A DNA stretch of 5,418 nucleotides, taken from Acidobacteriota bacterium. GTDB lineage: Bacteria; Acidobacteriota; Vicinamibacteria; Vicinamibacterales; UBA8438. Under the pieces are notes generated by a model. It had not been told where the DNA came from and did no database searches. It saw only the letters and a list, made by a program, of their open reading frames with translations. Of the stretch, positions 735-5,418 are shown piece by piece (position 1 is the stretch's first letter; the number at the start of each line of letters is the position of its first letter). Both the position numbers and the translations under genes were made by a program. Location of the stretch: contig WTGR01000313.1 in assembly GCA_011523485.1 (NCBI GenBank), positions 1-5,418 on the forward strand, in the 5' to 3' direction.

Positions 735-1085
735 GTGCGGATCGGCGAAGACCAAGGAAGGGCCGGCAACACCGCCGGCAGGGAGTATCGACTGAGCAAC
801 GTCACAGATCCCGACGGCAAGACCGGTAAGGGCCGGCGGCCACGCGTGTCCCTGCACGACGAACCCGGACGACGGGTAGGCGCGTCGTTCAAGCGGGCTG
901 GTCGCCGTTCCGACGCACCGAGGGACAAGACGCACAGGCTCTGGGTCGAACCATGGAACAGGAGACCGGGATCCCTCGCCCGCCCACCGGCAACAAGGGT
1001 CAGGAACCAGGGACAGCCGGAGGGCGCTCGACGCCGTCGACGTCGCGGGTACTGGGTGGGGAACCCCGAGACGCCGATCAGCGCT
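735..1085. other. Stretch without a supportable gene
   Basis: Two long open frames overlap here: plus-strand from GTG 735 (open to 1259) and a minus-strand frame continuing from the Calx-beta remnant. Neither is convincing. The plus frame begins VRIGEDQGRAGNTAGREYRL, is rich in Arg and Gly, has only moderately GC-rich third positions, and runs into the antisense of the Calx-beta shards. The minus frame gives a Pro/Ser/Arg-rich product. The plus frame could be part of a small basic protein, but no family is recognised and no ribosome binding site decides a start. Confidence 0.3.
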
Positions 1086-1544
1086 GCCTCGACTCGCAGG
1101 CTCGTAATCAGGGGTAGAACCGTCGGTCTGCGCAGTGCCGGGCGCCGTGCTCCACTCGACGGTGAACGAAAGACGCAGGCCCGCCGGACTGCCCGACATA
1201 GAAGACGACGGCCGGCCGGCGGCGGACAGGCTCCTGAACGACGAGAGGAGCGAGACTGAACTCGATCTCGCCGCCCTGGCCGTCATCGGTGATGGTGCCG
1301 GTGAGCACGGCGACGACAGTCCCGATGGCACTGCATGAAGGCCCGCTCTGCCTGTCGTAGACGAGTCGTAGACGTCGATATACAGCGTCTCAGCGGCCCC
1401 CTCCGCGACGTTGTCCCGGACAACGATCACGTCGCGCACCACGATCTCGGCGGACGCCGCGCGCAGGACAAACGTCCCGCTCGACGACTTCGCCGTCCCG
1501 ACCCACGCATCGCGCCGGGGGTGCTCCGCGCGAAGGCGAAGCAA
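1085..1544 (-). pseudogene. Calx-beta repeat protein fragment, frameshifted
   Basis: On the minus strand three consecutive pieces together read like the end of one Calx-beta domain and the start of the next. About 1510-1380 gives KSSSGTFVLRA, then DNVAEG and ETLYIDVYDS, which match the late strands and the acidic Asp/Glu pattern. About 1340-1227, in a second frame, gives VLTGTITDDGQGGEIEFSLA, the typical GTITDDG domain end followed by the next domain's first strand. About 1225-1090, back in the first frame, gives LSFTVEWSTAPGTAQTDGS and PDYEPAS, the YsTadGTA...DY core. Calx-beta domains bind calcium and usually occur as tandem repeats in large secreted or surface proteins. Here about one and a half repeats remain, with at least two frame changes, no start, no signal peptide, and loss of similarity after base 1090. 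The domain call is from pattern recognition. Confidence 0.6.
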
Positions 1545-1561: not shown

Positions 1562-1918
1562 GTGCGGCTCGGGCTGCGCGCCGAGGCGGACGTCCGACGA
1601 ACGACGGTCGAAGGCGTGGTCGACACCGGGGCGGTGAGTCTCGTCATCCCCGAGGAGATCGCAACGCAACTGGGGGCTCCAGGACTGGGGAACGAGAACC
1701 GTCGTCTACGCGGACGAGCGGCGCGAAGAACGGCCCATGACCGACGTCACGATCGAGATCGGAACCTCGCGATGCGGACCGAGGCCATCGTGGGGCCAGT
1801 GGGAAGCGAGGTCCTGATCGGCCAGCTGGTGCTCGAAGCACCCGAGCTGATCGCCGACTGCAGAAGGCGAACGCTGGCGCCGTGCCATCCGGAAGGGCCG
1901 GTCCTCGCGATCCACTGA
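1562..1918 (+). pseudogene. Retropepsin-like aspartyl protease, two compensating frameshifts
   Basis: The frame from GTG 1562 contains VDTGAVSLVIPEEIATQLG with catalytic Asp21 in a DTGA motif, the signature of bacterial clan AA (retroviral-type) single-domain aspartyl proteases. Similarity leaves this frame at a run of five G (1672-1676) and continues one frame over as LGLQDWGTRTVVYADERREE and then RPMTDVTIEIGT. It returns near 1766-1771 to the original frame as MRTEAIVGPVGSEVLIGQLV, LEAPELIADCRRRTLAP and HPEGPVLAIH, ending at TGA 1916-1918. Dropping one G at 1672-1676 and adding one base near 1767 would restore a continuous protein of about 119 residues, near the family's usual size. The true start may lie slightly upstream, since this frame is still open before 1562. 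Substrates of these small bacterial proteases are mostly unknown. Read literally, the middle third is scrambled. The defect is either real decay or two indel errors. Confidence 0.72.
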
Positions 1919-2549
1919 TCCCGCCCGCGACCAAGAGAACGACACCGGCCGGTCGGAGCGATGCGCCGACAAGTCGGAAACAACCTTCGGCTGAACGCTG
2001 GGGAATCTCGGCGGCGGGCAGGGTGCGGGGCACGACGTGAACGCCATCGCCGAAGTCGCCGACGATCCGGCGCGCGACCACGACGCTGTTGGCCGAAGGG
2101 TCGGCACCGAGGGCGATGCCGGTGTCCTCGATGACGCTGCCGGCGCCCACCCGCGCCGAGCGCACGTGCGCGTCGCTGCCGACCCAGACGCGGTCCCCCA
2201 GGTCAGTGTGCGGTCCGACGACAGCGCGATCGTCCACCCGGGCGCCTTCGCTCACCCGAGTTCCCGCCAGCAGCACGGCGCCGCCGCCCACGTACGCGTT
2301 GGGGCCGACGACGACGTCGGGGGCGACGAACGCCTGCGGATCGACGTACGCGCTCGGGTCGACCTTCGGCCCGCCGCGGTGCTCTGGCGCCACCTGCGGG
2401 GACACGTCGCACCAGACCTGGTGGCCCCACCGGCCTTCGGCCGCCGCGCGCAACGCGCTCGCCGCGTACTGCCCGGTGACCGCCTCGGCCGGACACAGCT
2501 CGTGCAGGGAGCCTGTGCCGCGCACCAGCGCCTCGGCCGTGTCGGCCAC
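1644..2549 (-). CDS. Left-handed beta-helix (hexapeptide-repeat) protein
   Basis: The minus-strand frame from GTG 2549 is open for 301 codons. Residues about 62-150 carry a clear series of six-residue turns of the [LIV]-G-x-x-x-x kind (for example KVDPSAYVDPQAFVAP, VVVGPNAYVGGGAVL, RVWVGSDAHV, RVGAGSVIED). These are the hallmark of left-handed parallel beta-helix proteins such as acyl- and acetyltransferases and gamma-class carbonic anhydrase-like proteins. Third positions are strongly GC-rich down to about residue 186 (near base 1990). Beyond that the frame runs antisense through the aspartyl protease and loses coding character, so the natural protein probably ended or was cut near 1990 and the rest to 1644 is spurious. 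The catalytic type cannot be decided. The N-terminus (residues 1-60) is not recognised. The GTG lies exactly where the divergent HD-domain reading begins, leaving no room for a promoter, so the 5' end may be truncated too. Confidence 0.65.
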   Translation of the reverse strand: MADTAEALVRGTGSLHELCPAEAVTGQYAASALRAAAEGRWGHQVWCDVSPQVAPEHRGGPKVDPSAYVDPQAFVAPDVVVGPNAYVGGGAVLLAGTRVSEGARVDDRAVVGPHTDLGDRVWVGSDAHVRSARVGAGSVIEDTGIALGADPSANSVVVARRIVGDFGDGVHVVPRTLPAAEIPQRSAEGCFRLVGASLRPAGVVLLVAGGISGSRGPALPDGTAPAFAFCSRRSARVLRAPAGRSGPRFPLAPRWPRSASRGSDLDRDVGHGPFFAPLVRVDDGSRSPVLEPPVALRSPRG

Positions 2550-2587: not shown

Positions 2588-3106
2588 GTGGGCGACATCG
2601 TGCACGTGCTGGGCGGCATCAACCGCTCCATCGGCCAGACGCGCGAGCCGATCACCGTGCTCTGGCACAGCGTGATGGTCGCCGAGCTCTGCCGCTTCGA
2701 GCACTTCGACACCCAGCTCGAGGCGCTGCTGCACGACGCCGCCGAAGCCGCCGATTGGGGAGCGCCCAACCGCAACGGCATGAGCACGTGGCTGCCGCAA
2801 AGCGACAAGCGCGAGGACGCCGGCAACGCCGTCGTGGCCGGCCGCGGTCCAGACGACCTGGGCGGCAGCGAGAGCGCAACCGTGGCGAACACGCGGGCGG
2901 GCCGGAACAGGGCGCCAAGGCTCCCGCTCCTGGACGGTGGACCAGCCGCTCGCGGAACTGCTCGAGCCAGCGTCGCTCGTCGTCGTTCCACCAAGCACCG
3001 AACCGGATCGCAGTGCTATCCTCGGAAAAATGCCAACGGAGCATGCCGCCCGGCCGACCGACCGAAACGCTTGGGTACGAACCGAGCTCAAACGCCGGAG
3101 GCTTGA
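2588..3106 (+). pseudogene. HD-domain phosphohydrolase, N-terminal part, probably truncated
   Basis: The frame from GTG 2588 reads VGDIVHVLGGINRSIGQTRE, then PITVLWHSVMVAELC, then TQLEALLHDAAEA. This is the pattern of the HD phosphohydrolase fold, with metal-binding His27 (WHS), the His49-Asp50 pair that names the domain, and Glu53. It resembles phage, plasmid and chromosomal YfbR-like proteins acting on nucleotides. Similarity already begins upstream of the GTG, at about 2552 (LDLRAIRPEDI), where no start codon is available in frame, so the 5' end is probably missing. After residue 55 the expected YLGD and later helices and metal-binding Asp do not appear. Third positions stay GC-rich to about 2930 and then decay, although the frame is open to TGA 3104-3106, overlapping the next gene. 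I infer a truncated gene or a junction with unrelated sequence near 2745. The HD identity is fairly sure; the biochemical substrate is not. Confidence 0.6.
3017..3022 (+). promoter_or_regulatory. Possible -10 element of the AbiEii-type operon
   Basis: TATCCT lies eight bases before ATG 3030 in a stretch where coding bias fades (about 2985-3029). At this distance transcription would begin at or next to the ATG, giving a leaderless message, which is common in actinobacteria. No good -35 hexamer is visible, and the A-run before the ATG is only a weak ribosome binding site. Tentative. Confidence 0.25.
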
Positions 3107-3494
3107 AGAGGGAACACGGACCCAGCCGGGGGCGGTGCTGCCGCCCGATGCGTTCAGCAACGCGTACGCCGACCCCGACCCGCGGTTCCCGATGACCAGA
3201 CGCGGACCGGACTGCGAAGCAATCGCCGGGCTGCTGAACCGGGCCTGCTGCGGGTGGCCGCAAAGCCCGACGGCACGGGAGTTCTACGAGGCGATGCGCA
3301 CGCCGGTGCGGACCGCACGCCAGCGGGCGATAGTACGCGTGCTGATCGTCGAAGGGACGACCGACACGGTCGCACTCGGCTACCTCGACGGGGCGTACAC
3401 GTGGCGGCAACTGGCGCAGGCGATGCACGAGAACAACCACTACAGCACGGAGCTCGCCGACTACGTCAACCGGCACGCGAAGCCACACCGATGA
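3030..3494 (+). CDS. Unrecognised 154-residue protein, partner of the AbiEii-type gene
   Basis: I do not recognise the family. The protein is soluble, with no signal peptide or membrane segment. Visible landmarks are a basic N-terminal ELKRRR (19-24), VLPPDAF (36-42), and a central CCGWPQSPTAREFYEAMR block (73-90). An arginine-rich stretch (91-103), a hydrophobic strand RVLIVEG and a helical C-terminus (WRQLAQAMHENNHYSTEL, 125-142) follow. ELKR, VLxPPxAF and the C-GW-PT-EFY-A-R block recur in a second gene starting at 5120, which shows that it is a true, conserved gene. Start: the frame is open back to GTG 2937, but bias and amino-acid make-up favour ATG 3030. Its stop overlaps the next start as ATGA (3491-3494), so the two are translationally coupled. 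By position it sits where AbiEii toxins have their antitoxin, but no winged-helix AbiEi-type domain is evident, so an antitoxin role is inference from context only. Confidence 0.78.
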   Translation: MPTEHAARPTDRNAWVRTELKRRRLEEGTRTQPGAVLPPDAFSNAYADPDPRFPMTRRGPDCEAIAGLLNRACCGWPQSPTAREFYEAMRTPVRTARQRAIVRVLIVEGTTDTVALGYLDGAYTWRQLAQAMHENNHYSTELADYVNRHAKPHR

Positions 3495-4159
3495 CCCTTC
3501 CGGAACCGGCCCGCACGCTGTGGAAGCGGCACCACAAGGCCATCGACCGAATCGCCGCGGCGCCAGGCGGCGAGAGCCGCACGATGCTGGGCGGCGGATC
3601 GATACTCGCCGCACGGTGGCGCCACCGCGAGAGCACCGATATCGACATCCTTCTGCCGGACCGCGACAACATCGCCGACGCCGGCGAAGGCGGACCGCTC
3701 GACCTGGCGGCAGCCACGGGCGGGAGACACGAAGGCAGCACCCGCGAGCGGTTGATCGTGATACTCGAGAACGGCAAGCTCGACGTCGCGGCAATCCAGC
3801 CACAGCTACCAGGCCTGGAAAGCCAAACCGCCGTCGAAGGGCGTTCGGAGCAGGTCCTCGACAACGCGCAAATCCTGCGGGGAGAGTCCTACCGGACCGA
3901 CCGCGGCGTGACACGCGACGCCTTCGACATGGCAGTGGCCGCCGACGAAGACCCACGCGCGCTGGAGGTGGCGGTCAACAGCCTCGACGAGGCCAGGACG
4001 CAAATCATCTGTCACAACCTGCTGACCATGAACGATGACATGGTCAAAGACGCGAAGACGACGCTGCGAGGGGTACCGCCGAAGTACGAGAAATACCTCG
4101 GCCGCATGGGCGACGCGGCAGCCGACGCAGCTTGGAACCACCGCTACACGCACGTGTAA
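3491..4159 (+). CDS. AbiEii/AbiGii-type nucleotidyltransferase (toxin-like)
   Basis: The 222-residue product carries the polymerase-beta-type nucleotidyltransferase signature: MLGGGSILAARWRHRESTDI, with GGGS at 34-37 and the metal-binding pair Asp50 and Asp52 in TDIDILLP. A third acidic candidate, Asp98, lies in ENGKLDVAAI. A later RDAFDMAVA (142-150) corresponds to the R/K-D-x-x-D helix commonly seen in AbiEii-type proteins. Known AbiEii toxins transfer nucleotides to cellular RNA targets (tRNA or related) and cause growth arrest, and are paired with an antitoxin as type IV toxin-antitoxin or phage-abortive systems. Here all expected active-site acidic residues are present, so the enzyme looks functional. 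The start ATG overlaps the upstream stop (ATGA), with no separate ribosome binding site, implying coupled translation. The stop TAA at 4157-4159 is followed in the same frame by coding-like sequence, so the natural product might once have been longer. The family call is confident; the toxin role is inferred. Confidence 0.85.
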   Translation: MTLPEPARTLWKRHHKAIDRIAAAPGGESRTMLGGGSILAARWRHRESTDIDILLPDRDNIADAGEGGPLDLAAATGGRHEGSTRERLIVILENGKLDVAAIQPQLPGLESQTAVEGRSEQVLDNAQILRGESYRTDRGVTRDAFDMAVAADEDPRALEVAVNSLDEARTQIICHNLLTMNDDMVKDAKTTLRGVPPKYEKYLGRMGDAAADAAWNHRYTHV

Positions 4160-4728: not shown

Positions 4729-4931
4729 GCTCCCCGCCGGCGCGGGAATGGGCCCGTGGGGTGTGCGCCCGGAAGGCTTCCCCGAACATGCGGGGATGGG
4801 CCATCGTTTGCAACAGTAGGTGACAAGGTCCCCGACAGCCTGCCCCGCAACGGCGGGGGATGGACCATCCCTCAAGCCGATCATCGGCTGGAAGTCTCAA
4901 ATTGCCCCGCAACCGCGGGGGTGATCCGTTC
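4729..4931 (+). CRISPR. Short degenerate type I-E-like CRISPR array
   Basis: Four related 28-30 base units with the CCCCG...CGGGG stem and GGATGGNCC-type 3' end typical of type I-E repeats are visible. They start near 4729 (CTCCCCGCCGGCGCGGGAAT), 4777 (TTCCCCGAACATGCGGGGAT), 4840 (TGCCCCGCAACGGCGGGGGA) and 4902 (TGCCCCGCAACCGCGGGGGT). The last two share 17 of 18 core bases. The second and third both end in ATGG(G/A)CCATC. Spacers between units 2-3 and 3-4 are about 33 and 32 bases, the usual I-E size. The first interval is only about 19 bases, so unit 1 is doubtful or a spacer is partly deleted. Repeats differ more than in a living array, and no cas gene or further repeat follows. A weaker repeat-like sequence ending GAGGATAAACCG lies at 4667-4694. 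I infer an array remnant or a badly sequenced array end. Confidence 0.62.
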
Positions 4932-4932
4932 C

Positions 4933-5123
4933 CGCAACGACCTTCAGCACCACAGCCGGCCGCTCGACGGGGCGCTGCGCGCCGTCGAGCACACCGAGCC
5001 GAAGACGGGTACGGTCGAGGTCGTCTCGTTCGGACCCGACCCCGACCCCAACGAGCCAGGCGGGCGCGGCGAGACCGTCGAGACGGGCCGGAGGATAATC
5101 GTCCGACGGAGAACGATCGATGA
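4933..5123 (+). pseudogene. Coding fragment between the CRISPR remnant and the second partner gene
   Basis: The frame through 4933-5105 has strongly GC-rich third positions and balanced composition: RNDLQHHSRPLDGALRAVEH, then TEPKTGTVEVVSFGPDPDPN, then GETVETGRRIIVRRR. No family is recognised. Upstream it runs straight into the CRISPR-like repeats without a start codon, so the 5' end is missing. Past about 5105 coding character fades. A neighbouring frame ends PTENDR at TGA 5121-5123, which would give an ATGA overlap with the next gene, as in the first module. One indel near 5105 would join the two. Interpreted as the 3' remnant of an upstream operon gene. Confidence 0.4.
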
Positions 5124-5418
5124 ACGAGCTGGAACAGTGGCACGCCGGCCGCCGGGAACTGAAACGCCACGATCGGGATGCCGAACCGGAAGTGCTCGGA
5201 CCACCCGAGGCATTCGGCGACCAGCGACCGGACGAGGCGTTCCGGCAGAGATTCCACCCGCGGCACGACCCGGCGCAAGTCGGCCGCGACAGCCGGGCCG
5301 TACGCGGCCGTCTGCGTAGCAGCTGCGCCGGATGGCAGGAGAAGCCGACGAGCGAAGAGTTCTACGACGCCATCCGCGCGAAGGAGCCGACATCACGGCA
5401 GGTCGACCTGATCCACAC
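5120..5418 (+). CDS. Second copy of the partner-protein family (partial, runs off the edge)
   Basis: ATG 5120 is preceded at a good distance by GGAGAA (5108-5113), and the frame is open for 99 codons to the window edge. It is homologous to the 154-residue protein at 3030. ELKR (13-16) corresponds to 19-22 there, and VLGPPEAF (25-32) to VLPPDAF (36-42). CAGWQEKPTSEEFYDAIR (69-86) corresponds to CCGWPQSPTAREFYEAMR (73-90), followed by RQ and hydrophobic residues in both. Overall identity is low outside these blocks, so it is a diverged paralogue and not a recent duplicate. By analogy a nucleotidyltransferase gene should follow just beyond the window. Function unknown; no membrane or signal segment is seen in the visible part. 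Confidence 0.75.
   Translation, partial: MNELEQWHAGRRELKRHDRDAEPEVLGPPEAFGDQRPDEAFRQRFHPRHDPAQVGRDSRAVRGRLRSSCAGWQEKPTSEEFYDAIRAKEPTSRQVDLIH

Follow-up and report, generated by a model that had tools for sequence, protein, structure and literature searches.

We analysed a 5,418-nt stretch of DNA from an Acidobacteriota bacterium (contig WTGR01000313.1; the whole stretch is called the window below), in which a preliminary description had pointed to two coupled genes as a candidate toxin-antitoxin (TA) or defence module. As seen in Table 1, the first gene encodes a small protein, here called the partner, and the second an AbiEii/MenT-like nucleotidyltransferase (NTase). Both frames, their coordinates, the 154-residue length of the partner and the ATGA overlap (ATG at 3491, TGA at 3492–3494) were confirmed on the sequence, as were the NTase motifs read earlier (GGGS at residues 34–37, plus Asp50, Asp52 and Asp98). 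The partner block CGW...PT..EFY.A.R proposed in that description is real as well: it is largely kept in 23 aligned partners and is also found in a second partner gene at the window end, which scores 109 bits against the partner profile and shares 52% identity over 95 aa with the partner of locus L021.

Table 1. Features of the two-gene module and its surroundings in the window
Feature	Coordinates	Strand	Evidence
Possible extended -10 box TGCTATCCT	3014..3022	+	Sequence; 7 nt upstream of partner ATG
Gene 1: partner, putative antitoxin, 154 aa, apparently intact	3030..3494	+	Profile family, alignment, AlphaFold2 (AF2) model
Gene 2: AbiEii/MenT-like NTase, N-terminal 222 codons up to in-frame TAA; decayed	3491..4159	+	Pfam and relatives
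NTase motifs I and II (GGGS ... R46, S48, D50, D52)	3590..3646	+	Alignment
NTase motif III, position 132 (Glu in the window)	3884..3886	+	Alignment
NTase motif IV, RDAFD (+DxxD)	3914..3928	+	Alignment; motif definition from PMC3985639
Remainder of NTase gene, C-terminal family part, same frame past TAA	4160..4549	+	Profile match
Second, divergent partner gene, 99 residues visible, cut by window end; start of second module	5120..5416	+	Profile and identity

Judged by its sequence, gene 2 belongs to the AbiEii/DUF1814 NTases. Its product (P0002) scores 24.6 bits against Pfam AbiEii (PF08843; best stretch residues 22–63 only), above the curated cut-off of 22.5, which bears out the AbiEii-type identity first suggested for it, and 23 of the 27 aligned NTase members match the same family at E <= 0.01. 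Among the 27 rows, G34 and G35 are invariant, R46, D50, D143 and D146 are found in 27/27, R142 and K132 in 26/27 and D52 in 25/27; motifs I–IV of AbiEii/DUF1814 are intact in the family. In the structural comparison the best rows are MenT toxins, and the family has the MenT fold, as predicted, together with the catalytic residues of the toxin. Ser48 is invariant, two residues before the DxD, at the same place as T39 of MenT1 and S78 of MenT3.

The partner is confidently modelled by AF2 as all-helical, with a predicted local distance difference test score (pLDDT) of 88.3; in the 23-member alignment G75, E84 and A88 are invariant and W76 and P80 are kept in at least 90%. It matches no named family in the Pfam, NCBIfam, PADLOC or PHROGs profiles, and its model has no Foldseek match in the PDB at E <= 0.001. 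For the 23 partners, sequence profiles of Pfam, NCBIfam and PADLOC gave neither an AbiEi family at E <= 0.1 nor a helix-turn-helix (HTH) family above cut-off; there was one weak HTH_62 match (E 0.076). The partner had originally been described as lacking a recognised antitoxin domain, and so far this holds, since none of the four profile libraries assigns it to a described antitoxin family; it is probably an antitoxin from a family that has no name in these libraries.

Out of 60 other NTase proteins, 44 are 305–381 aa long and the remaining 16 are 143–269 aa, as compared to the 222 codons before the stop in the window; the preliminary description had not recognised this shortening. The stretch that follows in the same frame still scores 135 bits against the family profile (model positions 224–346). 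At position 132 the window copy lacks the motif III lysine, having Glu where 26 of 26 aligned relatives have Lys; exchange of the motif III Lys for Ala is reported to abolish the toxicity of both AbiEii (PMC3985639) and MenT1 (PMC10435456). Because of the premature stop and Glu132, the window NTase is most likely a dying toxin gene next to an intact partner gene, although the stop at 4157–4159 may be a sequencing or assembly error. Compared with the nearest named relative (locus L003), differences at first, second and third codon positions number 48/38/116 before the stop (222 codons), 31/34/51 after it (97 codons) and 55/45/65 in the partner (150 codons), with a strong excess at third positions before the stop and a weaker one both after it and in the partner.

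The neighbourhood survey that the preliminary description had proposed shows that relatives of the partner mostly lie beside such NTases. In the Acidobacteria genome that holds L003 (G001), 16 of 17 NTase matches have a partner upstream, overlapping or within about 130 nt. Within the family of G001, 12 of 28 genomes contain NTase matches (23, 18, 15, 11, 9, 4, 4, 3, 2, 2, 1 and 1 per genome); 17 of those in G308, 12 in G309 and 10 in G001 reach 800 nt or more. Some genomes of this family contain twelve or more of these modules. Across ten further genomes of the family, the partner is found upstream in 58 of 60 NTase loci, in each case on the strand of the NTase (none was found at L114 and L128); these are 60 of the 75 NTase matches outside G001, the other 15 being short fragments that cover at most 214 of 319 model positions. 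When the partner was searched across the order (best 23 candidates per genome scored, a number reached by G308), it was found in 12 of 162 genomes, identical to the 12 with NTase matches (within the order, the NTase was searched in this family only). When the two lists are joined, 83 NTase matches out of 93 are paired, as are 83 of the 100 partner matches listed among these best candidates. With 16/17, 58/60 and 83/100 linked, homologues of the partner have so far not proved to be rare beside nucleotidyltransferases, and the finding is more than chance, given an NTase above the AbiEii cut-off and a pair that is seen again in dozens of loci. The correlation between partner and NTase distances is weak. 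We also note a dispersed DNA repeat (47–120 bp stretches, 78–89% identical by blastn) near the modules of L017, L018, L027, L029 and L030 in one Acidobacteria genome.

Wider searches, in which the best 12–14 candidates per genome were scored, showed the partner to be rare, with matches in 1 of 297 genomes of the phylum sample (G001 itself), in 5 of 249 genomes of the phylum of G002 and in 1 of 274 genomes of the class of G003, a Gammaproteobacteria genome. Four of the five matches in the phylum of G002 are weak (E 1.2e-5 to 9.8e-4) and come from Gemmatimonadota genomes (L135–L138), in which a longer partner-like gene directly follows the NTase and matches the profile only over the C-terminal helical region; the fifth (L134) has the usual gene order. 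The L135–L138 partners have a conserved N-terminal part of their own with a GPHGSMIGG block, and no Pfam or NCBIfam family was found above cut-off in the three of them scanned. In the Acidobacteria family, too, there is a case with the NTase first (G308:C396), the partner match lying 241 nt downstream. In G003 the partner L139 is paired, and for the partner match L140 no NTase was detected; out of the seven NTase matches of this genome, four were inspected, C74 having a partner and C22, C29 and C267 none or a weak one. Its locus L034 contains two weak partner-like genes, at 2252–2968 and 969–1532 (-), with E-values of 0.0019 and 6.5e-5, one of them directly after an NTase and neither with a Pfam or NCBIfam family. 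Three things are unusual: how often the NTase is paired with a member of an unnamed family, the branch with reversed gene order, and the increase to 23 NTase matches in a single genome.

Which of the two genes is the toxin can be approached through their decay. The 100 partner matches listed include 57 in which a full partner lies by a full NTase, 21 with a full partner and a partial NTase (one of these where a contig starts) and none with a partial partner and a full NTase; 5 are partial on both sides, 8 are full and alone and 9 partial and alone (we set the thresholds for full at 350 nt for the partner and 800 nt for the NTase). Most genomes are in many contigs, and partial matches may be contig ends. 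Zero partner-side lesions in 21 would have a probability of 1.3e-4 if lesions followed length alone, and including whole losses (3 partner losses in 32) the value is 1.1e-3, both for related copies, which are not independent of one another. In such systems it is generally the toxin that is lost more readily, and the one-sided decay is as expected if the partner, judged from these gene remnants, acts as the antitoxin. Tight linkage and one-sided loss of the presumed toxin, as in a two-gene TA module, are thus both seen.

From the sequence family and its motifs, the predicted folds, the frequent pairing of genes whose distributions match, and the one-sided decay, we consider it likely that the window carries a decayed two-gene TA module of a MenAT-like type, in whose intact relatives gene 2 would be a MenT/AbiEii-type NTase toxin and gene 1 an antitoxin of an unnamed family. 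Of the earlier suggestion of a TA or abortive-infection pair, the TA part stands at the level of the family, with its unnamed partner and frequent pairing; a working module in the window does not, given the stop and Glu132, and we found no evidence for abortive infection.

Among the closest known systems, the MenAT pairs of Mycobacterium tuberculosis (MenT1/MenA1, MenT3/MenA3 and MenT4/MenA4) differ in that the partner here is without a match to any named family, an additional C-terminal region is present in the Acidobacteria NTase, and up to 23 NTase matches occur per genome. MenA antitoxins are described as coming from several unrelated families (PMC11375011), and therefore a further family would vary a known theme and not be a new kind of system.

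It is unlikely that no TA system is involved at all and that the partner serves a non-toxic NTase as a targeting or regulatory subunit. Three points do weigh against a TA module here: the toxicity of the NTase is read from sequence and predicted fold, both genes share a strand and either adjoin or overlap, and the Acidobacteria NTases extend C-terminally past the region they share with plasmid NTases. A subunit, however, fits poorly with a distribution that is multi-copy, patchy and decaying, with the rarity of lone long NTases (3/60) as compared to the common partners beside a partial or no NTase, and with the MenT catalytic positions kept in the aligned relatives.

Rather improbable, too, is a partner that is a highly diverged AbiEi or HTH-type antitoxin, which would make the pair an ordinary AbiE system (AbiEi/AbiEii, type IV TA). 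The likeness to AbiE includes the Pfam AbiEii match, the bicistronic layout with the partner first and the four motifs including +DxxD (PMC3985639). Gene order and overlap also resemble the HTH plus AbiEii/AbiGii-family NTase pairs of Burkholderiales plasmids (e.g. Polaromonas JS666 plasmid 1 and Cupriavidus pHG1), whose NTases are the nearest in the plasmid collection (28–34% identity) and homologous to those studied here (hhalign E 7e-24); 7 of 9 fetched loci have an upstream HTH protein of similar length with an overlap of 4–19 nt, the exceptions being Paracoccus (an 87-aa hypothetical instead) and one locus without annotation. On inspection of the model, the three C-terminal helices of the partner might make up an HTH. 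In the plasmid partners, however, the HTH is N-terminal, and homology to the Acidobacteria partner was not detected: hhalign gives a probability below 1% between partner and HTH-partner profiles, with a score of 14.4 that 5 of 60 column shuffles reach. The profile searches and the Foldseek search described above also argue against this explanation, no winged-helix AbiEi having turned up by sequence profiles. As a separate observation, a distant HTH plus NTase pair on the Polaromonas plasmid (L001, 12498–16384) lies near the BREX (bacteriophage exclusion) genes brxL and pglZ.

The least probable alternative is a reversed arrangement of the HEPN/MNT kind, in which the small all-helical partner would be an RNase toxin and the adjoining NTase an antitoxin that modifies it; R126 followed by H133 in the window partner (P0001) resembles Rx4-6H, which we take to be the HEPN motif. 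Such pairs are predicted to be very abundant (PMC7641770), but the motif is not conserved here (by manual count, 14 of 23 aligned partners have His at position 133, and the close relatives P0006 and P0008 have Arg), no HEPN family is among the partner matches in Pfam or PADLOC at E <= 0.1, the NTase is of the AbiEii/MenT kind with MenT toxins as its best structural rows, and decay goes the other way, with partial NTases beside full partners. The decay on the NTase side only is why we take the NTase to be the likely toxin; this decay and the poorly kept His both speak against a HEPN/MNT arrangement.

For a TA module, we propose that the partner would be translated first and coupled to the NTase (the overlap is seen in the window and many relatives), and that it would most likely bind the NTase and keep it inactive, either by blocking the active site or, by analogy, by triggering self-phosphorylation of Ser48. 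T39 of MenT1 and S78 of MenT3 are reported to become phosphorylated when unrelated antitoxins act (PMC11375011), and the same control at Ser48 is possible. Loss of the partner would free the NTase, which, going by its motifs, its fold and what MenT1 and MenT3 do, would most likely add nucleotides to tRNA 3' ends and so stop translation and growth. Upstream of the partner, the extended -10 box is a candidate; a TAnnAT-like box seen by eye, without a control, at about half of 15 other partner starts is suggestive only.

Other features of the window include three degenerate CRISPR-like repeats at 4768–4930, with a palindromic CCCCG...CGGGG core, 62–63 nt apart and 20/28 identical between neighbours at best register (without a control); they resemble type I-E repeats, and we came across no cas gene in the window. 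A hexapeptide acyltransferase fragment (Pfam Hexapep, 37 bits) lies at 1644–2549 (-), and just after it, at 2588–2760 (+), is what looks by eye like a truncated HD-domain protein (no Pfam match); the neighbours of the module may have decayed too. Weak matches below cut-off were found at 1562–1918 (clan AA aspartic protease) and at 58–387 (C-terminal part of TniQ, E 0.0012), the latter a possible transposon remnant by sequence.

MenT/AbiEii toxins are widespread. Pfam sees the NTases but not the partner, so that such NTases could be taken for orphan toxins in surveys. Acidobacteriota are listed among the phyla where orphan toxins and antitoxins outnumber paired systems (PMC12654330). A bolder reading, to which we give limited credence, is that the partner founds a new antitoxin family, maybe of a new helical fold, whose members silence MenT-type toxins (perhaps via Ser48 self-phosphorylation), and that one Acidobacteria family expanded it, in some genomes to twelve or more divergent modules that target tRNA and that diversify and decay under phage pressure. 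One mechanism has been proposed for unrelated antitoxins that control the same toxin fold (PMC11375011); an additional family of partners, with its many divergent copies, would, if true, be a natural test set for such shared control, and its multi-copy expansion and one-sided decay are directly testable.
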